A DNA stretch of 21,494 nucleotides, from positions 1 through 21,494 of the IMG/VR virus record IMGVR_UViG_3300030085_001423; one strand, 5' to 3'. Origin of the DNA: a virus. Of the stretch, positions 2,418 through 21,478 are shown in pieces. A program made the translations under genes and the position numbers. Under the pieces are notes generated by a model. It searched no databases, was not told the origin of the DNA, and saw nothing but the letters and a program-made list of their open reading frames with translations. Position 1 is the first letter of the stretch. Every line of letters starts with the position of its first letter.

Positions 2418-2926
2418 GTTGTCTCCTTTTTATCAAATGATGCGTAAGCACTCAATATATATCTATATTTATTTTCTGGACAAGGTTGTCCTTTGTGTGC
2501 ATGTGTCCAAAATGCAGGAAATAATAAAGACCTTCCTTTCACTGATTTAACCATTCTACCATCAATAAATTCTGTGCCACAATTATGATCTGAAAGATAA
2601 GTTAAGACAGCAAGAACTCTTGGTTTATCATAAGCTTGTTCACTATGAAACTCATCAAAAAAATCTCCTGGATTAAATTTTTTAAATCTAAATCCTTTTA
2701 AAGACCAAAGATCTGAGGTGCAATTTATTTCTGGATTTTCTGTTTTATATTTTGGTAATATTCTTGCAACTAAATTTTGTAATATATTATCTTCGTAAGG
2801 CATGTCATAATAACTATAATTCCAAGGTGATTTTAATGAACCGTTTAATTTTGATGAATAGTTATTTATCAAATTATCACACTCCTCTTCTGATAACGAA
2901 TTATCAATAATACATATGTTATTCAT
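2414..2926 (-). CDS. 2OG-Fe(II) oxygenase (P4H-like) in the lysis cassette
   Basis: 170-aa prolyl-4-hydroxylase-like oxygenase. Visible: GFRFKKFNPGDFFDEFH leading to H94-S-E96, a hydrophobic strand with YLSDHN and CGTEF (116-120), GRSLLFPAFWTHAHKG with the distal iron ligand at H142 or H144, and K153-Y-R155 as the 2-oxoglutarate-binding basic residue. The first iron motif is HxE instead of the usual HxD, which some 2OG enzymes tolerate. The family is frequent in marine cyanophages and pelagiphages, with unknown substrates. It starts by a one-base overlap (TAATG) with the holin candidate and overlaps the endolysin by ATGA, so it lies between the two lysis genes. No clear Shine-Dalgarno is seen, so translation probably relies on coupling. 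No membrane segment is present. Confidence 0.85.
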   Translation of the reverse strand: MNNICIIDNSLSEEECDNLINNYSSKLNGSLKSPWNYSYYDMPYEDNILQNLVARILPKYKTENPEINCTSDLWSLKGFRFKKFNPGDFFDEFHSEQAYDKPRVLAVLTYLSDHNCGTEFIDGRMVKSVKGRSLLFPAFWTHAHKGQPCPENKYRYILSAYASFDKKETT

Positions 2927-3105
2927 TATTGAAACATATTCATGATCAAGGCAAGTATTATAGCTCCGCCTCCACCCATGATCATTCTCTCCATCCTTGT
3001 TACACGTTCTTTGATTTCTTTTATTTGTTCAAAGGTCTGCTTTTGCATTATTCTGCAAAGCTTTTCGTGATCCTCAATTTTTTGTAGTGCTGACTTCTTA
3101 GCCAT
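2926..3105 (-). CDS. Small one-TM protein, XhlA-like holin/hemolysin candidate
   Basis: 59-aa gene found by reading the gap between larger genes. The N-terminal two thirds are charged and heptad-like (MAKKSALQKIEDHEKLC, then EQIKEIKERVTRMERM), followed by a short glycine-led hydrophobic segment at 42-58 (IMGGGGAIILALIMNMF). A coiled coil followed by one C-terminal membrane helix, with the ERVTRMER pattern before it, resembles XhlA-type phage hemolysin/holin partners. Position supports this: it is directly upstream of the oxygenase and endolysin at the end of the late operon. The start has AGGAGAG about five bases upstream and shares one base with the stop of the 1404-aa gene. The membrane segment is short, so a spanin-like or other membrane role is possible. 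Confidence 0.7.
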   Translation of the reverse strand: MAKKSALQKIEDHEKLCRIMQKQTFEQIKEIKERVTRMERMIMGGGGAIILALIMNMFQ

Positions 3106-6100
3106 TATACTCTCCTACTCGCTATAATTTTTTCTTCAGGTGATAGTAAAGCTTCTTGCGTTGGTGTCAAGTTAGTATTTGGATTCACATTAGCTCTTGC
3201 TGTTTGCACCACAGGCATAGGTGTATTGCCTAATGGTGGTGTCTGTATATCAGCTAATTGTGTTGTTGTTTGTTGTTGTGGTGCTTCACTAAACAAATCT
3301 TTGATACTATCTAGACCTCTTTCAAATATACCTGGTTCTTGTTCCTCTGGTTTAATACTTTTTCTGTTATACAATCTTTCTATTTGTTTAAAGTTTCTTC
3401 TTGGATAAAAATAGTTTCTGTTGATTGCGCCCTCATTTAATTCTTTTGATAGTTTTTTAGCATCATCAACTCTTTTTTTCATACGACCATCATAACCAGA
3501 ATATGGAATATTAACACCTCTTAAAAGCTTTCTTGCATTTTTAGAAGATATACCTCTTTCCTTCATTATCTTTTTTAATTTTTGTGTGCTAACACCCATC
3601 GTATTTGCATCTTCTAATACTCTGTAAAACTGTCGATTAACTTTTAAGTTTTCTTCTTGTATTTGTTTGAACTCTTCAACTAAAACTTCAGGACCTCTTT
3701 GTCTAAAATTTTCTAAACTAAAAAATTTTTCTGTGGCTGTAACACTTCTTTTGTTCCTGTTGTACTCTGTAATTTTGTATTGCATAGTTCTTGGTACATC
3801 AATATTAATAATTCTTATACCAGATAATAATGCAAGTATTTCATCTTGTAGTGATACTGGTTGACCACCTCTTTTAACATCTTGTTTTAAACCTTGAACT
3901 AATTTTCTACCTGTTGTAAATGCACCAGGTTCTACCCCTTTTAATATGTGTACAAAACTTTTTGATATTTTTTCACCATCTGAGTCTGTATCAGAGTAGA
4001 CTTTTGCACCTGTTTTAGTTACACCTCCTCTGTTACCAAGACCTAACTCTGCAGGTAACACGTCAGTAAATCTTTCTAATGCAATTGATTGTGTTAAGAA
4101 CGGATCTAATAAAGTTCTAAGTGGTCCATCTTGATCTATTGCTTGTGATAAAAGTTTTTGACCAACTGTGTTTTTATCTAATGTTCCTTCTTGCCATTGT
4201 TTAAATATAGCTTCAATTGGTTTTGTTACTGTATCGTATGGACTAAAGTATGAAAAGTTAATTGCTTTACCAACACCACCTTTCCATTTATTAATAGGTA
4301 TGATTTGTGCTCTTTTCTCCCATGGTGCAGATAAACTTCTTTTGTATGCTTCTACTTCTTCCATTGTCACACCTGTCAAAGCTTGTGATATTTCTGATAC
4401 TGCTTTACCTGTACCACCTAAAGTTACATACGCTCCTAATAATCTTCTAAGACCCATTTGTCTTAATTTAGGGTTTGCTGATGTTGCTTCTTTCGCACCC
4501 AAAGATATAATATTATATGTTGTTCTAATCATCTCCGCAGGAAACGATACGAAGTTACCAAATGGTAACTTTCTAATATTTTGTACAAACTCTGGAACTT
4601 TACTATACGTTGGATATGTATTTCTAATATACCATGCAGCAGCCTCATCTACAGCTTCATCAAATGTTTTTAATTTACCAGTAAAAGTATTTTTTGGATC
4701 AAACTTTCTACCAACTATTTCATCATACCATTTTGCAATGTCTCCTGTTTTACTATAGATGCTACGTAGTTGTGACTTTACATATTCATGACCGTACCAC
4801 TTCCAAAGGTTATCACCTCCAGCATATACTCTTGCAGCTCCTTTACCAAACTTACTAATTGTTTCTCCAGTTTTTTTAAGAACAGTATCATCAAATGCAA
4901 ACTTACCATCTGATAAAGCTCTAATAATTCTATCTAAACTAGTTAATCCTTTTGTATTTTTAATCTCTTGTAATACTGCTTTAAGTTCTGATGCTACAAT
5001 ATTTTCGTCTAATACACCAAGACGTATTTTATTTTCTATGTTTTTAATAAATGCATCTTCATCTATAACTTTTCCTGCACCAAAAATGTCATCAACAGTC
5101 ATCTTTAATGCCTCTGATACAGATGATCGACCACCTATGTGACCGTTAGCTAATGGAAATAAACTTGCAGATGAAACGTTACGCACTTGTGTTACCGGTG
5201 ATAATACAGTTTTACCATACTGTGCAGCTACTTTTAATTGTAGTATGTTTCTATACACACCATTTTGTATCCAAGTATCTAAACCTTTTCTAGTTTGTCT
5301 AAAGACTTGCGTAAGCTCTGGTGTTGCAAAGTATTTAGACATATCACTTTTTAATAAACCTAAACTTTTTACATCACCTATTTTTTCTGCATCAAAATAT
5401 CTTTTAGCATCAGCTGCTGCTTTACTTCTAAACAACCAACCTTCATCTAAACCTATTTTAGCTAACTTATCAAAGGATTGTTTGTTAACTGCATGTGTGA
5501 TTGCATGTGATGTTGTAGTCAATACAGATGATTTTAAATTGTCTTCTTGTCCTAATAATTTTCTTATAGCATCTGGTAGTTCTTCTCCAGTTCTTATTAT
5601 TCTATCTGTTCTTAAAAAATCTTTACCGGCAATATTTTTTAAAACTTGTAATGGGTCTGCGCCATCTTGTTTGCCTGCTTTTAATATTTTATCTGTTAAC
5701 GATTCTGCAAACTCATCAATAGCTTGTTTATCTGTCATCTTTGCTGTTTTTAATTTTAATGCTTCTTCTCTTAAATCTTTGTTTTTTGTAACAACATTAT
5801 TTACTATCCAACTTCTGGCACCATCATATATTTTTTTGTCCGGTTGAAAGTTAGGGTTTGTAAAGATAGCAAAAGATTGTCTCATGTATGTTTTTAAATT
5901 ATCCAACATAAAATTTTTAAGATCACCTTGTGGTAATAAACCTGCAAACTTTTCTTTTATCAATGCCATTTCATCACCTAAACTTTTTGCGCTACCTTGT
6001 ATTTCAGTTGGTAGTGCTTTTAGTTTTATGTTGCCTTTTAAATATCCTAACACTTGATCTAAATAATAATCTTGACTAGCCTCTGATGCAGTTTTTGTGT

Positions 6101-7319
6101 TGTGCTTTGTTTCAAAATCTTTTGCTAAATTGTATGCTTTCTTTTCAATTGACTCTAAATATTTTTCTATTGTTCTTGATTGTGCTTTTATTTCTCTTCT
6201 AGCCTCTGATGATATTTGATAACCAAGACCTGTTTGTCCTCCTACAGAGGTAAACTTTTGTAAAAATCCTGACAGTCTTTTTAATCTTCTTTCTAAAGGA
6301 TCTTTACTATCTCTTGAAAATAATTTCCATTCTTCAAACTTAGGTAATTGTTTTGCACCTGTTCCTACTCTTATAGGAAACAAAGCTTTGTTTACTACGT
6401 AAGAACTTGCGTTTCTAAGTGCTTTACCAACTGGTTCTGGTATGGCTTTTGATCCAAGGTACGTGAGCGGTGATACCACAGCCTTGTCTACTGCTTTTAA
6501 TCCAATACCTGCTACCTTTGCACCAGGTTTGAAGATACCATATTTAAAACCAAGAGCTAATGGTTTTCCAACTAAAGAAAAACCCATACCAAGTAAAGCG
6601 CCATCTGCACCAAATCTAACTCTGTTTCGAAGTCTTGCTAATGCAAGATCACTTCCAGATAATCCTTCTGTATTTTCCTCTTTTACAAATAAAGTTTCTT
6701 TGTCAGGTGCAGATGCAACAAAATCTGTTGCAGCAATAGCACTAGACATATAGCCAACTCTTTTTGCAATTTGTGTTCCTTTTTGTAATTTAGTTCCTGT
6801 GTCTGCTAATTTTCTGTTTCTTTGAAATATTTTAAATCTGTTTAATATTTTAAAAGCTGCACCACCAGGCACACCATATTGTGTTAATACTTTCGCAACA
6901 GAACCTGTAAGTGTTTCAGGATCTTTTATTTTATTTTCTTCATAAACTTCTGTTAATTTTTCTGATAACTCTGTTTCTTTATCCGCTAAACTTGCTAAAC
7001 CATCTATTCCTGATGTAAGTAAATCACCTACAGCATATCCCAAATCTTGAACACCACCATACAAACCTTTTTCAAGATCTTCAAAAAAATCTATGTAGTC
7101 TTTTTCTTTTTCAGGTGCACCTTCTTGTAACTCTTTAATTCTCTCTAACTTTAATTTATCAAAAGGGTTAGTTTCTAAAAAACCAGATGCAAGATTCGCA
7201 AAACCTTTCCATGTAAACTTTACAGGTTTTTTCTTTTTGTTAAGAACTTCTTTCGCAAGTCCCGTTATACTTTCAGCTCTTTCTAAGCTTTTTTGTTTTT
7301 GCTTAAAGGGTTCAGCCAT
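3105..7319 (-). CDS. Giant internal virion / DNA-ejection-type protein (1404 aa)
   Basis: Largest gene of the window and last virion-type gene before lysis, the place held by T7 gp16-like ejection proteins. The N terminus is basic and charged (MAEPFKQKQKSLERAES), followed by several Gly/Ala-rich amphipathic or weakly hydrophobic stretches (about residues 85-115, 140-200 and 235-300), long charged helical regions, and a segment around 712-730 (RNVSSASLFPLANGHIGG) of a type I recognise from large proteins of uncultured marine phages. Around 920 lies GNFVSFPAEMIRTTYN, and the C terminus has a basic region, a Pro/Gln-rich linker and an end motif TPTQEALLSPEEKIIASRR. I see no lysozyme or protease motif. 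Its start has GGAGGG just upstream and follows the preceding stop by one base. The ejection role is inferred from size, place and composition, not from a recognised domain. Confidence 0.7.
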   Translation of the reverse strand: MAEPFKQKQKSLERAESITGLAKEVLNKKKKPVKFTWKGFANLASGFLETNPFDKLKLERIKELQEGAPEKEKDYIDFFEDLEKGLYGGVQDLGYAVGDLLTSGIDGLASLADKETELSEKLTEVYEENKIKDPETLTGSVAKVLTQYGVPGGAAFKILNRFKIFQRNRKLADTGTKLQKGTQIAKRVGYMSSAIAATDFVASAPDKETLFVKEENTEGLSGSDLALARLRNRVRFGADGALLGMGFSLVGKPLALGFKYGIFKPGAKVAGIGLKAVDKAVVSPLTYLGSKAIPEPVGKALRNASSYVVNKALFPIRVGTGAKQLPKFEEWKLFSRDSKDPLERRLKRLSGFLQKFTSVGGQTGLGYQISSEARREIKAQSRTIEKYLESIEKKAYNLAKDFETKHNTKTASEASQDYYLDQVLGYLKGNIKLKALPTEIQGSAKSLGDEMALIKEKFAGLLPQGDLKNFMLDNLKTYMRQSFAIFTNPNFQPDKKIYDGARSWIVNNVVTKNKDLREEALKLKTAKMTDKQAIDEFAESLTDKILKAGKQDGADPLQVLKNIAGKDFLRTDRIIRTGEELPDAIRKLLGQEDNLKSSVLTTTSHAITHAVNKQSFDKLAKIGLDEGWLFRSKAAADAKRYFDAEKIGDVKSLGLLKSDMSKYFATPELTQVFRQTRKGLDTWIQNGVYRNILQLKVAAQYGKTVLSPVTQVRNVSSASLFPLANGHIGGRSSVSEALKMTVDDIFGAGKVIDEDAFIKNIENKIRLGVLDENIVASELKAVLQEIKNTKGLTSLDRIIRALSDGKFAFDDTVLKKTGETISKFGKGAARVYAGGDNLWKWYGHEYVKSQLRSIYSKTGDIAKWYDEIVGRKFDPKNTFTGKLKTFDEAVDEAAAWYIRNTYPTYSKVPEFVQNIRKLPFGNFVSFPAEMIRTTYNIISLGAKEATSANPKLRQMGLRRLLGAYVTLGGTGKAVSEISQALTGVTMEEVEAYKRSLSAPWEKRAQIIPINKWKGGVGKAINFSYFSPYDTVTKPIEAIFKQWQEGTLDKNTVGQKLLSQAIDQDGPLRTLLDPFLTQSIALERFTDVLPAELGLGNRGGVTKTGAKVYSDTDSDGEKISKSFVHILKGVEPGAFTTGRKLVQGLKQDVKRGGQPVSLQDEILALLSGIRIINIDVPRTMQYKITEYNRNKRSVTATEKFFSLENFRQRGPEVLVEEFKQIQEENLKVNRQFYRVLEDANTMGVSTQKLKKIMKERGISSKNARKLLRGVNIPYSGYDGRMKKRVDDAKKLSKELNEGAINRNYFYPRRNFKQIERLYNRKSIKPEEQEPGIFERGLDSIKDLFSEAPQQQTTTQLADIQTPPLGNTPMPVVQTARANVNPNTNLTPTQEALLSPEEKIIASRRV

Positions 7320-14736: not shown

Positions 14737-15300
14737 TTACTTCCTTGTTCGTTTTGTGGTTCCGTATATTGATCTTTTATCTCCTTCCCATTCTGTATAT
14801 TTCCCATTTTTATCTACATAATGCATAAATAATTGAGATTGCCAATCCCCTTTAAAATCCTCTCTTCCATGTTTTACCTCACATCCTAGATAAACTACAG
14901 CGTCTCCTGGTTTTAAATTTACTTTAACACCATTCATAGATATAGGCCACTCAGTGCCATCGGATCCTAACATTACTGTAACACTTATTTCACAAGCAGA
15001 TCGGTCTCTATGTTTTGGTAAATTAGCTGCGTAAGTATACATTCTCCAAAAAGCATATGTAGGCAGTAATTTTAAACCTGTTTCTTTTTCAATTACATTT
15101 TGTTTACCTAACATCACAGATTCCATAACAGCATCTCCATAATACATGGTGTCTAAATTATTAGACAAACCTAAAGGTGTATCAAAACTATCTGAATTAG
15201 CTCTGTGTTTTATTATTGAATAAATTGTTAATAACTCTACTTCTTTTTTAGTTAAAAATTTTTTAATTTTTTTATATTTAAAATCTCTTATAGTGCCCAT
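14737..15300 (-). CDS. 2OG-Fe(II) oxygenase, marine-phage type (187 aa)
   Basis: Visible elements: YAFWRMYTYAANLPKHRDRS, giving H97-R-D99 as iron ligands with R100 beside it, then ACEISVTVMLG, WPI, VNLKPGDAVVYLGCEVKHGRE with distal H144, and QSQLFMHYVD (154-163) closing the beta helix. The order fits a cupin-like 2-oxoglutarate dioxygenase. The usual basic residue about ten positions after the distal histidine is not obvious; R146 or K150 might serve. Substrate unknown; protein, nucleotide or small-molecule hydroxylation are all possible. The gene overlaps the previous oxygenase by 13 bp, so the two are probably translated together. No strong Shine-Dalgarno is seen. Confidence 0.82.
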   Translation of the reverse strand: MGTIRDFKYKKIKKFLTKKEVELLTIYSIIKHRANSDSFDTPLGLSNNLDTMYYGDAVMESVMLGKQNVIEKETGLKLLPTYAFWRMYTYAANLPKHRDRSACEISVTVMLGSDGTEWPISMNGVKVNLKPGDAVVYLGCEVKHGREDFKGDWQSQLFMHYVDKNGKYTEWEGDKRSIYGTTKRTRK

Positions 15301-15851
15301 GATACTATTGAATATCTTACTCCTTCTATTACAGGTTTAACTTCGTGTGGATATAAAAAAGTGCTTGGCCAAACAATAATGCGATTTGGTTTTGTTAAAA
15401 TAACATTATCGTTTGAACCATCCGGATCTTTAAAACAAAGTTCTCCACCTTTATAATCATTATTTAATAAAACAATAGCACTTAATGTTCTAGGAAATTC
15501 TAAACAATGATCCCAATGAGTTTTATAGAATCCATCTTTTTCATATTTTAAGGCTGTAACTTCTACTATCTTATTGTAATAATTAGTTGAAGTTTTTGAA
15601 AATGTTTTAGAGTAATCTATAAAACATTTGTGTAATACGTAGGTCCAAAGATTAGCCCAGTGCACGTTAGTTAGACTTGGAGACATAGGACTTAAATTAA
15701 GAGTCCAAGTTCTTCTAACACCAAAATCTTCTCCTTCAACAATTTTAGCTTTTGAAAATTCTTTACTTGAATTTAAATATTTTATAAAGCTACATAAAGA
15801 TGTAATTGGTAAAACATCATCATATGTTTTTATATAATCTTTTATTTCCAT
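15288..15851 (-). CDS. 2OG-Fe(II) oxygenase (P4H-like, 187 aa)
   Basis: A clear prolyl-hydroxylase-like pattern: LKYEKDGFYKTHWDHC with iron ligands H112-W-D114, RTLSAIVLLNNDYKGGELCF (121-140), RIIVWPSTFLYPHEV with distal H169, and G177-V-R179 as the 2-oxoglutarate anchor before the final strand YSIVSWAL. All four expected catalytic residues are present, so it should be active. I took the ATG at 15851; an in-frame TTG at 15866 would add five residues (MEKKI) but ATG is the simpler choice, with weak GGAAA upstream. It overlaps the end of the DUF6065-like gene by 10 bp and the next oxygenase by 13 bp. The family is widespread in cyanophages and pelagiphages; substrates are not established. Confidence 0.87.
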   Translation of the reverse strand: MEIKDYIKTYDDVLPITSLCSFIKYLNSSKEFSKAKIVEGEDFGVRRTWTLNLSPMSPSLTNVHWANLWTYVLHKCFIDYSKTFSKTSTNYYNKIVEVTALKYEKDGFYKTHWDHCLEFPRTLSAIVLLNNDYKGGELCFKDPDGSNDNVILTKPNRIIVWPSTFLYPHEVKPVIEGVRYSIVSWAL

Positions 15852-16591
15852 GATTTTTTTTTCCAAAATCTATTTTTATACACGTTAAAAAAATTTAATC
15901 TATAAAATGATTTTTTAGGAACTAAATCATTAGTTTTAAATTTTTTAATTTTCATTTTCCAATTATCTCTTTTAAAGGGTATGATCTGAACACAAGGAGT
16001 GCCTTTCTTTATAATAGTGTCTAATGAAGAATACTTGTCTCCATTAATTACAAAAGGAAAATTAACTTCTTGATTAAAAGTGTCCGTATCAACTATTCCA
16101 GGTATAATAGAAAATCTATCGTCTGCATTATTCATAGGAGGTAAAAACAAACAAGAATAACCTGGTGGTGTTTTTATGTGCCATGGATTTAATATTTTAT
16201 AAAAAGGTAAATTTTTATTTTTTTCTACAAAAGGAGATCCTGCTAGTTGTCCTGTTGAATGTATATCTCTTGTCATGTCAGAACTCAAATTAATACCTCT
16301 AGAATGTAAATAACCTGAGTCTATTTCTCCAGTGTGCACAAAACTATCTTTTTGTTTTGTTTCTGGATTTTCTACATTATGTTTAATGGAAATATCTTGT
16401 GGAATTCTTAATAAATATCCAGAGGTCAAAGTATCAAGAAAAGGCATGCATCCTTTAATTGTTCTAAAACGTGGGGAATGGTTTAATTTTTTAAACCACT
16501 CTGGTATATTAGTTTTTATTGGAGTGGGATAATCTTCTTTTAAATTAACATAATCTTCGTGACAAGAAAAAGTAATTATTTTTTCAAACAT
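15842..16591 (-). CDS. DUF6065-like conserved protein (249 aa), function unknown
   Basis: Recognisable landmarks: IPEWFKKLN (29-37), IKGCMPFLDTLTSGYLL (45-61), NPWHIKTPPGYSCLFLPP (135-152), PGIVDTD (164-170), VNFPF (176-180), KKGTPCVQIIPFKRDNWK (195-212) and a very basic C terminus (KKSFYRLN...WKKKSWK). The order of a Cys-Pro start, TPPGYS/PPxN, GIVDTD, FPF and KGTP fits the DUF6065 family, which occurs beside oxygenases in marine phages and bacteria; its role is not known to me. The fold may be beta-rich. It is the first gene of the cargo island, after a 48-bp spacer with a hairpin and an AT-rich element, and overlaps the following oxygenase. No Shine-Dalgarno is evident. Confidence 0.6.
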   Translation of the reverse strand: MFEKIITFSCHEDYVNLKEDYPTPIKTNIPEWFKKLNHSPRFRTIKGCMPFLDTLTSGYLLRIPQDISIKHNVENPETKQKDSFVHTGEIDSGYLHSRGINLSSDMTRDIHSTGQLAGSPFVEKNKNLPFYKILNPWHIKTPPGYSCLFLPPMNNADDRFSIIPGIVDTDTFNQEVNFPFVINGDKYSSLDTIIKKGTPCVQIIPFKRDNWKMKIKKFKTNDLVPKKSFYRLNFFNVYKNRFWKKKSWK

Positions 16592-19026: not shown

Positions 19027-20121
19027 TTACGCTGCTTTTCCTGTTACGTCTGTATAACTAATATTAGATCCAGTGTCAATAGCTTGATATGCTTGAATTC
19101 CAAATCCAGTAGCAGTTCCAAATGAAGCAACGGATGTAGTAGCTTCTACACCTGTTAAACCTATTACGTCTGCAGGTGTTAATGTTCCAATATTAGCAGT
19201 TGCTGAAACTCCTGTCAATCCCATAACATCTGCGGGAGTGATTGAACCCACAGAAGAGGTTGCTGAAACTCCAGATAATATTGCAGTGGGGTTAGATGTA
19301 ATACTAACTTCACCAATACTTGTTGTTGCTGAAACTCCTGTAACTCCTATTACATCTGCAGGAGAAATTGATCCAACAGAGGCTGTTGCTGAAACTCCTG
19401 TAACTCCTATTACATCTGCAGGAGAAATTGTTCCAACAGAGGCTGTTGCAGATACACCAGTTAATGTCTGAGTTATGTCTGCTATTACTGATGGTGATCC
19501 AACACTTGCTGTTGAAGATACTCCTGTTACTCCCATAACATCAGCAGGTGAAATAGATCCAACACTTGCTGTTGCTTGTTGACCATCTAATAATACATCA
19601 CCTTGAATGCCCCACGCATTTTCGTTCCATGGTTGTCTACCCCAACCTGAATTTATTTCTGCATCTACTGTTACGGAGCCAATAGAGGAAGTTAGTCCAA
19701 AACCTGTAACTGAAACATCAATACCATCTTGTGAACCCCATAAATTTTGATTCCAAGGTAAAACACCCCATGTATTTGAATCTACTGTATTTGCTTGTCC
19801 ACCCATTCCTGAGTGATTAGTACAATAATAATATAAAGTTGGTGCGGAAGCAGCTACAGTAATTTGTGTGTAAGCATCCGTGTTTCCAGGTGTTCCATTT
19901 GTGGTTACACCAGTTGTATACTCAGTGCCTTCATTATGTGTTCCGCCACTTGTTGTAGAAAATCTTAAAGGGTGATTAGCGTTCGATGAATCAGATTGAT
20001 CAAACCTATATGTATAACCTTCAGCTAAATTAACAGTATCTTGTTGTACACCGTCAATAGCATATTTATTACCAGCGCCGGTAGAAACTACCGTTACTGT
20101 AAAAGTTCGAGTAACGGACAT
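19027..20121 (-). CDS. Virion protein with cupredoxin-like domain and tandem 20-residue repeats (364 aa)
   Basis: Three parts. First, residues 1-112 form a cupredoxin-like domain: YRFDQSDSSNANHPLRFS supplies H50, and LYYYCTNHSGMGG supplies C100, H103 and M106, the four ligands of a type 1 copper site with the C-x2-H-x2-M spacing of amicyanin. Second, two W-G-x2-P-W-N-x-N-x-W-G motifs (118-129 and 160-171). Third, about 182-348 holds tandem repeats of the GVSATASVG/SPADVIGVT type, about 20 or 22 residues each. It lies between tail genes with a strong GGGAGGT ribosome-binding site. The repeats suggest a beta-structured fibre or baseplate part; the domain's copper binding is inferred from ligands only. 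There is no signal peptide, consistent with virion use, not export. Confidence 0.75.
   Translation of the reverse strand: MSVTRTFTVTVVSTGAGNKYAIDGVQQDTVNLAEGYTYRFDQSDSSNANHPLRFSTTSGGTHNEGTEYTTGVTTNGTPGNTDAYTQITVAASAPTLYYYCTNHSGMGGQANTVDSNTWGVLPWNQNLWGSQDGIDVSVTGFGLTSSIGSVTVDAEINSGWGRQPWNENAWGIQGDVLLDGQQATASVGSISPADVMGVTGVSSTASVGSPSVIADITQTLTGVSATASVGTISPADVIGVTGVSATASVGSISPADVIGVTGVSATTSIGEVSITSNPTAILSGVSATSSVGSITPADVMGLTGVSATANIGTLTPADVIGLTGVEATTSVASFGTATGFGIQAYQAIDTGSNISYTDVTGKAA
19080..19580 (-). repeat. Tandem 60/66-bp coding repeats
   Basis: Repeat array inside the 364-aa virion protein, with about eight units encoding (G)VSATASVG followed by SPADVIGVT or a divergent stretch. Most units are 60 bp; two (near SPSVIADI and EVSITSNPTA) are 66 bp and diverged. 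Two adjacent units (about 19326-19445) are nearly identical in DNA over more than 55 bases, with a single A/T difference at the GAAATTG-A/T-TCC site, pointing to recent duplication or conversion. Confidence 0.85.
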
Positions 20122-20134
20122 CCGTTAACCTCCC

Positions 20135-20572
20135 TTAAGCTATTCTTATGATCGCGTTTGTTGCGTCTGCTGTTGGAAATTGAATTGTGAAAGTACCACT
20201 TGTTACAGTTTTATCTCCACCAAAAGCTATAACTGCAACAGCTTTATCAGATTGATCATCATTATAAATTAATGCACCGTTTGCTGTAAAAGACGCAGAA
20301 GAAAAACTTACATCTGCAAAATCACAAAGTGCAGTTGTTCCAGAAGTTGTTGGTGTAACACTTGTTAAAGTAGCTCCACCTGCAGTGTATGCAGTTCCAG
20401 ATGAGTTTGTAATTTCATTTGATGTTGAATAAGCTGTAGTTCCAGCACCTAAAGTTGCAGAGCTAGTGTATAAAGCTATTTTAAAAGTGTCTCCACTTGT
20501 AGCTGTAAAGTTGTGTGTACCAACTAATATTTCTTGTTTAAAACTTGTGCATACTGCCGATGTTATTGCCAT
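20135..20572 (-). CDS. Putative virion structural protein (145 aa)
   Basis: Small beta-rich, Ser/Thr/Ala-rich protein: SFKQEILVGTHNFTATSGD, FKIALYTSSATLG, AYSTSNEITNSSGTAYTAGG, SFSSASFTANGALIYND and a final FTIQFPTADATNAIIRIA. I recognise this SFKQEILVGTHNF...FKIALYTSSA pattern as frequent between adaptor and fibre genes of marine phages and prophages, where it is unnamed or called structural. It may be a tail-collar, baseplate or fibre-connecting protein. AGGAG lies about nine bases before the ATG; no overlap with the neighbours. No enzyme motif. Confidence 0.7.
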   Translation of the reverse strand: MAITSAVCTSFKQEILVGTHNFTATSGDTFKIALYTSSATLGAGTTAYSTSNEITNSSGTAYTAGGATLTSVTPTTSGTTALCDFADVSFSSASFTANGALIYNDDQSDKAVAVIAFGGDKTVTSGTFTIQFPTADATNAIIRIA

Positions 20573-20582
20573 AATTTTTCTC

Positions 20583-21287
20583 CTATGGGTTTGCTGAGTT
20601 TACCGGTATACGAACAGCGCCATCAGTGTAGTCATCTCTTCGTCTTCTACCAACTTGCTCGTTAGCAAACTTCTGTACCTCTTGTTTATACTTATTTTCG
20701 TATAGTGTCAACATATCAATTGGACCTTTTAAAAATCCATATGCTTCTGATAGACAACAATATAATAGCCCATTTGGGAAGTTAAGACTAATATAATTAG
20801 TATCATCATTTTCTAATAATGCAGGAGCTGCATTGTAGTGTACCCTAAATTTGTATGTATTGTCTGGAACTGGGGCAAACATCATTTTTCCAGATGTAGT
20901 GTCTGACTCTCCTGTGCCACCACCAAACATAGCATAATATTTTGGTTGCCCTCTTTTAGCAGATGCGGTTGATGATACGTATTCCTGTAGATAAGTAATA
21001 TCTTTTTTTTCTAACCAAATATTAGGACCAGTTATAGCTGAAGTAGAATCGTATACTTGTATTCCTCTTATGAACACAGCGCCTGCTGGGGCATTAACTG
21101 TTTCTTGTCCTGTAACTAAATTACCTGATTGTTGTTTTCTATCTGCATCTATAGGCACATCTCTAAAAATTCTATATTGTGCATTTAAAATTATATTTTC
21201 TAAAACAGAATCCGATAAAACATTTGAATCTGTTTCGGTATAACTTCTAATTTGTGTTTTTAACCCTGATGCACTTAATCCAGCCAT
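20583..21287 (-). CDS. SU10-type adaptor / head-tail connector protein (234 aa)
   Basis: Links the portal to the tail. It begins with a helical segment (GLKTQIRSYTETDSN, SDSVLENIILNAQYRIFRDV, 8-44), then a beta-rich core with INP-like landmarks: W91-LEKKDITYLQEYV, GQPKYYAMFGG (113-123), MMFAPVPDNTYKFRVHYNAA (135-154) and LLEN, then a C-terminal helix block SLNFPNGLLYCCLSEAYGFL (167-186) and YENKYKQEV with a basic tail QVGRRRRDD. This order fits the SU10-adaptor/tail-tube-A class. The ATG shares one base with the previous TAA, and AGAGAGG lies upstream. Its place ahead of all tail genes agrees. Confidence 0.8.
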   Translation of the reverse strand: MAGLSASGLKTQIRSYTETDSNVLSDSVLENIILNAQYRIFRDVPIDADRKQQSGNLVTGQETVNAPAGAVFIRGIQVYDSTSAITGPNIWLEKKDITYLQEYVSSTASAKRGQPKYYAMFGGGTGESDTTSGKMMFAPVPDNTYKFRVHYNAAPALLENDDTNYISLNFPNGLLYCCLSEAYGFLKGPIDMLTLYENKYKQEVQKFANEQVGRRRRDDYTDGAVRIPVNSANP

Positions 21288-21478
21288 TATACTGCTGCCT
21301 CTCTACAAATAGGACAATTTTTTTTATATCTATTATGTGTACCACATTTTATAGCTTTTCCATCTTTGTTTGTATACTCTTCAACATATGGTTCTGCCTC
21401 TTCATATAAAACAAGATGTGGATCTTGTTTTTCTGGTGTAAATATATTTTTTATCCAATTCCAAATTTTATTTATCAT
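21287..21478 (-). CDS. Zinc-ribbon-like miniprotein (63 aa)
   Basis: N-terminal amphipathic and aromatic helix (MINKIWNWIKNIFTPEK), an acidic middle (LYEEAEPYVEEY), and a C-terminal C45-G-T-H48...C55-P-I-C58 cluster (C-x2-H-x6-C-x2-C) fit to bind one zinc. CGTHNRYKKNCPICRE is a pattern I recognise from small unnamed marine phage proteins. It lies just before the adaptor gene, to which it is joined by TAATG. The frame upstream of the ATG stays open to the window edge but offers no other start, and ATGA overlap with a possible upstream gene supports this ATG. Function unknown; a small virion-assembly or nucleic-acid-binding factor is possible. Confidence 0.65.
   Translation of the reverse strand: MINKIWNWIKNIFTPEKQDPHLVLYEEAEPYVEEYTNKDGKAIKCGTHNRYKKNCPICREAAV

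Follow-up and report, generated by a model that had tools for sequence, protein, structure and literature searches.

The locus and its genes

The DNA analysed here, referred to as the window, is a stretch of 21,494 nucleotides whose source record is a viral contig of 23.7 kb. It carries a structural module in which an SU10-type adaptor gene, a phrog_644 gene, an ORF of 364 amino acids and a phrog_31104 gene with a weak match to a tail connector follow in this order (Table 1). No export signal was seen in the 364-aa protein. Its relatives without the N-terminal domain described below consist solely of the Trp-Gly-rich/TGVSATASVGS-type repeat part.

Table 1. Positions of the domain-bearing gene, its predicted metal ligands and its neighbours in the window
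Feature	Position	Strand	Details or evidence
Domain-bearing ORF	19027-20121	-	364 aa, intact, ATG start
Ribosome-binding site AAGGGAGG, 5' of the ATG of the 364-aa ORF	20129..20136	-	Sequence
Predicted cupredoxin-fold domain, residues 1-112 of the 364-aa protein	19786..20121	-	AF2 model, Foldseek/VIA copper-protein matches, family profile
Remainder of the 364-aa protein, Trp-Gly-rich segments and TGVSATASVGS-type repeats	19030..19785	-	Translation
60-base tandem repeat within the repeat part	19324-19449		
H50 codon, predicted N-terminal His ligand	19972..19974	-	His in 248/249 distinct domains with a residue there
C100 codon, predicted Cys ligand	19822..19824	-	246/246 distinct domains
H103 codon, predicted C-terminal His ligand	19813..19815	-	245/246 distinct domains
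M106 codon, predicted axial Met ligand	19804..19806	-	244/245 distinct domains
phrog_644 gene, unknown function, upstream neighbour	20135..20572	-	PHROG E 4.6e-22
SU10-type adaptor (connector) gene, same structural module	20583..21287	-	PF24175 E 5e-19

Ligand residues and their conservation

The first-pass annotation, made from the letters of the window, had claimed a complete blue-copper ligand set with amicyanin-like spacing. In the translation of the 364-aa ORF, H50, C100, H103 and M106 do stand at the positions and in the order and spacing that were claimed, and C100 is the sole cysteine of the domain. The probability of such a pattern arising by chance was estimated by searching the 30 frames of at least 100 aa in the window for CxxHxxM with a His 38-75 residues upstream. 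The pattern occurs once in these frames, and at least once in 8 of 1000 residue-shuffled sets. On its own the test is modest support; conservation decides.

A profile of 20 diverse domains (A1) was used to align the domain copies across 281 sources, yielding 318 aligned copies of which 250 are distinct. The H-C-H-M quartet is present in 243 of these. Among the seven exceptions, L102, L203 and L164/L165 run off the end of the sequence retrieved, L088, L093 and L095 each contribute a degenerate second copy, and L156 reads HCQE, having lost H103 and M106 together. Because the motif was itself part of the patterns by which many loci had been retrieved, a motif-independent set was also defined, comprising 170 fully covered domains with a non-motif pattern or no pattern, from which 59 motif-only rows, 3 truncated rows, the window itself and the phage-record loci had been set aside. 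Here the order expected of a putative type 1 site, His...Cys-xn-His-xn-Met, is conserved in 169 of the 170 domains, the remaining one being HCQE. The four residues are near-invariant among homologues and neither C100 nor H103 varies freely (Table 1); with the quartet and the C-x2-H-x2-M loop conserved, the claimed type 1 ligand set with amicyanin spacing holds up.

The six most conserved columns among the 250 distinct domains are F40, C100, H50, Y98, H103 and M106. The ligand loop of amicyanin is C-x2-H-x2-M, and the phage domain has it in common, with a spacing that is invariant in all 244 distinct domains holding the motif; the distance from H50 to C100 ranges between 41 and 75 residues. Synonymous codons vary at C100 (TGT 158, TGC 86), H103 (CAC 123, CAT 121) and H50 (CAT 132, CAC 113), and hence selection acts on the amino acid. 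Exactly one Cys is found in 237 of the 250 domains, so that it has no disulfide partner within the domain.

Two domain copies occur in 23 of 295 frames. The proteins of L088, L093 and L095 are large cyanophage structural proteins in which an intact copy is followed by a degenerate second copy. Decay of the loop tends to affect its residues as a set (L156, L326, and the second copies of L088 and L095). For example, C, H and M are all absent at the loop in L326 and in the second copy of L088, the Cys alone remains in place in that of L095, and the alignment of the second copy of L093 stops short of the loop. The earlier suggestion that the metal might stabilise the fold is thereby weakened, as is stabilisation as the sole role: L326 and the second copies of L088 and L095 persist despite loss of the loop, and the domain is missing from the majority of orthologous repeat genes. 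A purely stabilising role fits poorly because the loop is gone from such copies although the remainder of the domain is kept.

Predicted fold

The AF2 model built from 17 aligned rows has a pLDDT of 83.8 and a pTM of 0.78, and the one built from 48 aligned sequences, with nine strands, reaches 94.5 and 0.88. When the 48-row model was searched against PDB with Foldseek, the top match was a copper nitrite reductase of Hyphomicrobium (E 1.7e-4), followed by multicopper oxidase, rusticyanin, AcoP, small laccases and pseudoazurin. Judged by their titles, 49 of the 50 matches listed are copper proteins of cupredoxin fold or chimeras, and the lone exception is an antibody chain (8si1_L). The 17-row model gave weaker matches (best E 0.017). 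The second-look aligner VIA superposed 102 residues on 2dv6 at 2.8 A (Z 10.0), and every one of its 50 rows is a nitrite reductase, a laccase or rusticyanin. The best structural matches are thus domains of multicopper oxidases and three-domain copper nitrite reductases (2dv6, 6tfo; Z 9.6-10.0), which belong to enzymes with further copper sites, whereas the domain of the phage tail protein has one predicted site.

The structure prediction and search that had been proposed as a check bear out the cupredoxin fold, the modelled domain being a Greek-key beta-sandwich of the kind that defines the superfamily. As judged from this model and from the conserved residues, the first 112 residues of the protein make up a cupredoxin domain whose predicted His-Cys-His-Met site is intact. 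Among predicted viral proteins (BFVD), 58 matches were obtained at E up to 0.001, led by proteins of S-TIM5 and other cyanophages. Beta-sandwich proteins from Pithovirus and Marseillevirus records (A0A481Z6J5, A0A481Z7Q7 and A0A481YY19) also match the model structurally.

Sequence relationship to known cupredoxins

The small blue copper proteins (amicyanin, plastocyanin, pseudoazurin; PF00127) share with the phage domain the fold and the His-Cys-His-Met order. The window domain differs from them in having no PF00127 match and in residing on virion proteins without an export signal, in marine phages. The single window sequence gave no cupredoxin match in Pfam or in phmmer searches of PDB. PF00127 (Copper-bind) did not match the window protein at E up to 1, its curated cut-off not being reached, and matched 1 of 20 A1 members (E 9.4e-4). 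Likewise, the amicyanin model TIGR02657 was not reached by the window domain, which has no NCBIfam match at all, and matched 2 of 20 A1 members (best E 0.006). The Pfam matches obtained were a weak DIP2311-like one for the window protein and CBM_4_9 for the domain (E 0.031).

The apparent sequence link to cupredoxins grows with profile depth. The A1 profile searched against PDB gave a best E of 0.0043, and 18 of 21 rows are, by reading, copper-protein folds. A1 contains one divergent row, the second domain of L091; a 14-row rebuild that drops it and five others gave a best E of 0.17, with copper-protein folds in 5 of 12 rows. The case rests on structure and conservation because of this rise in the best E. 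The 249-row family profile was compared by hhalign with the groups of PF00127. It matched the pseudoazurin/plastocyanin-like group at 91.4 percent (E 9e-7), against at most 1.1 percent for 30 shuffled decoys, and in this alignment C, the second His and Met coincide and H50 lies one column off. The azurin-like group gave no match (0.4 percent, with one shuffled decoy at 44.2 percent), nor did the remaining group (9.8 percent).

A scan of 299 genomes matched two multicopper oxidases (L318/L319), in whose alignments the type 1 His and Cys of the oxidases pair with the predicted ligands: H50 with a His in HHPIHIHGH, C100 with the YHC cysteine. At a nominal database size of 100,000, the family profile reaches them with E 2.9e-4 and 8.9e-4, and A3 with 0.0048 and 0.028.

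Another source of matches was the antibodies, which were the only hits of the single-sequence phmmer search of PDB (best E 0.034). These probably reflect the YYC before the loop, and the fold search ranks copper proteins first. Two viral proteins, those of L091 (P-HM1, 2560-6231) and BFVD M4QD42 (MED4-213), are annotated as immunoglobulin V-set (PF07686). The cupredoxin domain may have been misread in these annotations, as YYC resembles the end of an antibody V domain. Such annotations (PHM1_104 and M4QD42), the antibody hits and the existence of degenerate copies would all suit a relic, i.e., an Ig-like stickiness module that is metal-free and keeps its ligands for packing. Yet the four potential ligands are near-invariant while their neighbours vary, and an antibody chain is just 1 of the 50 structural matches listed, which makes the relic very improbable.

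Occurrence among phages and optional presence

A tblastn search of 50,697 phage records found the domain in 87, which are named as phages of Synechococcus, Prochlorococcus, Pelagibacter and Methylophilales, cyanophages, and marine or uncultured phages. IMG/VR scans with four queries gave at least 595, 97, 467 and 21 relatives. The hunch that the domain is widespread is borne out by these phage records and by the IMG/VR relatives, at least 595 for one query. Plasmids gave no match to the domain.

The domain is found in several kinds of protein. For example, it lies in the C-terminal part of a T7-type tail fibre (PF03906) in L293, at the end of a gp9-like fibre connector (phrog_677), and in gp7 of P-HM1; baseplate proteins and large cyanophage structural proteins also carry it. 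In PHROGs it is present only as part of tail-fibre and unknown families. By the annotation of relatives, the carriers are predicted to be virion tail, connector and baseplate proteins. In L032, the domain ends a 246-aa gene between two adaptor-like genes, and the repeat protein there is without it. This locus (3602-4342 and 6609-7175) represents a sister group in which the module has moved between neighbouring genes, the domain lying upstream of an adaptor gene.

Optional presence was examined from an anchor other than the domain, namely phrog_644, for which 80 loci were fetched and plus-strand frames alone were read. The domain is missing from 62 of them. Among the 67 loci with at least 1.5 kb downstream of phrog_644, it lies just downstream in 17 and is absent in 50. 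In most of the 50, the repeat protein starts directly with the WG-rich part, and in a few another fibre-like gene comes next. The 17 carriers against 50 domain-less loci indicate that the domain is an exchangeable accessory. An essential assembly role is rejected for this clade by the same counts. Similarly, the Ig-like accessory domains of phage tails are optional beta-sandwich modules on many virion proteins, but the structure search gives the phage domain a different fold, and they are without a conserved metal-type quartet.

Cellular relatives

Bacterial and archaeal assemblies gave 26 loci, and the quartet is kept, by reading, in all 27 domains shown. One of these genome-contig loci, L293, is a phage region with the T7-type fibre, which rules out a bacterial origin for it; the other 25 are not individually proven phage. 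Clearly cellular forms are rare, with matches in 4 of 299 genomes of the phylum of G001, a Pelagibacteraceae assembly, and in 3 of 100 of the phylum of G004. The former four include G001 itself and the two oxidases. G161 has two short proteins that start with signal-peptide-like segments, and L321, with CHRD domains, and L322, with a weak sorting-domain match, have an exported look. These exported bacterial relatives share the H-C-H-M quartet. They suit a copper site because bacteria handle copper outside the cytoplasm.

A predicted metal site on virion proteins

Type 1 copper sites have been described in enzymes and in electron-transfer proteins of the periplasm, the extracellular space and organelles. 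The near-exceptionless quartet suggests that the virion particles, too, bind a metal, most likely copper. The domain is probably an exchangeable, optional module of the virion surface that holds one copper ion in a type-1-like site, is loaded outside the cytoplasm and aids host contact; copper binding, the identity of the metal, the geometry of the site and its function are here what we infer. The domain would be made metal-free in the host cytoplasm, from which free copper is excluded, and with no export signal in the window protein, copper loading needs a later step. Once released into seawater, or on reaching the host surface, the domain could then bind a single copper ion in a mononuclear type-1-like site, and its metal-set face may assist the contact of the tail with the host surface. 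Such a contact role is modelled on other accessory domains of phage tails; electron transfer would be possible and is not required. The small blue copper proteins have Asn after the first His, whereas the phage domain has Pro, which counts against this reading. Pro also follows the type 1 His in the oxidases L318/L319, like in the phage domain.

The metal need not be copper in life. The cytoplasm in which virion proteins are synthesised offers zinc but little copper, and the window protein is without an export signal; cupredoxin sites can, moreover, take zinc in vitro. Zn(II) from the host cytoplasm could thus serve, for example, as a structural cross-link in the virion protein. This is unlikely, however, given that the soft Met at the fourth place (244/245) is better suited to copper, loop-less copies persist beside intact ones, and the cellular relatives are exported.

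Greater activity of the copper site may also be imagined, in that it would swap electrons with a partner at the host surface or in the periplasm, or pose as a copper source for an uptake receptor. The complete type-1-like ligand set would allow this. Electron-transfer cupredoxins have an open His edge, and the small residue at position 104, beside H103 (S, A or G in 230/244), would leave such an edge open in the phage domain. An analogous iron hypothesis has been published (PMC11705849, in its accessible part). No partner is known, however, and G001 has no PF00127 match; a generic role better suits a domain found at several virion places in phages of quite different hosts. Hence a redox or decoy function appears quite improbable. 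A broader proposition, which is doubtful, is that marine tailed phages display working blue-copper sites on their host-contact machinery, as copper bait or for redox-sensitive docking, which would make virions a hitherto unrecognised reservoir of strong ligands for copper in seawater.

Metal sites have likewise been predicted elsewhere in the part of a phage that touches its host. In the accessible part of PMC11705849, HxH motifs form trimeric octahedral iron sites in T4 gp37-type tail fibres, also of marine phages, and an iron Trojan-horse hypothesis is tied to these sites. There is no HxH motif in residues 1-112 of the window protein, and its predicted set includes Cys and Met, unlike the HxH iron fibres. 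The cyanophage plastocyanin gene petE is another phage-encoded cupredoxin fold, but a metabolic one; it is a host-derived metabolic gene, not described as a virion part in the accessible text (PMC3037559). A cupredoxin or type 1 copper site as a virion part is not reported in the literature searched, which left most subscription papers outside, and the accessible part of PMC8875312 is unrelated to virion cupredoxins. The fold and the type of site are therefore already known; what is added is a virion-borne family whose window domain is recognised by no Pfam or NCBIfam model. It is shared by podovirus-like and T4-like phages whose hosts rank among the most abundant bacteria of the ocean. A conserved virion copper site, if true, would make it testable whether marine virions carry copper and whether infection is affected, would carry the Trojan-horse hypothesis for iron over to a second metal, and would offer a physical handle on many phage proteins annotated as hypothetical or as Ig.

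Other genes of the window

A small ORF adjoining the adaptor gene (21287-21478, minus strand) ends in CGTHNRYKKNCPICREAA, a Cys/His cluster like that of a zinc knuckle. Four further ORFs (1290-1949 on the plus strand; 2414-2926, 14737-15300 and 15288-15866 on the minus strand) may encode 2-oxoglutarate/Fe(II)-dependent oxygenases, as judged by eye from a motif of such enzymes. Two of these four oxygenase-like ORFs lie inside the structural module.
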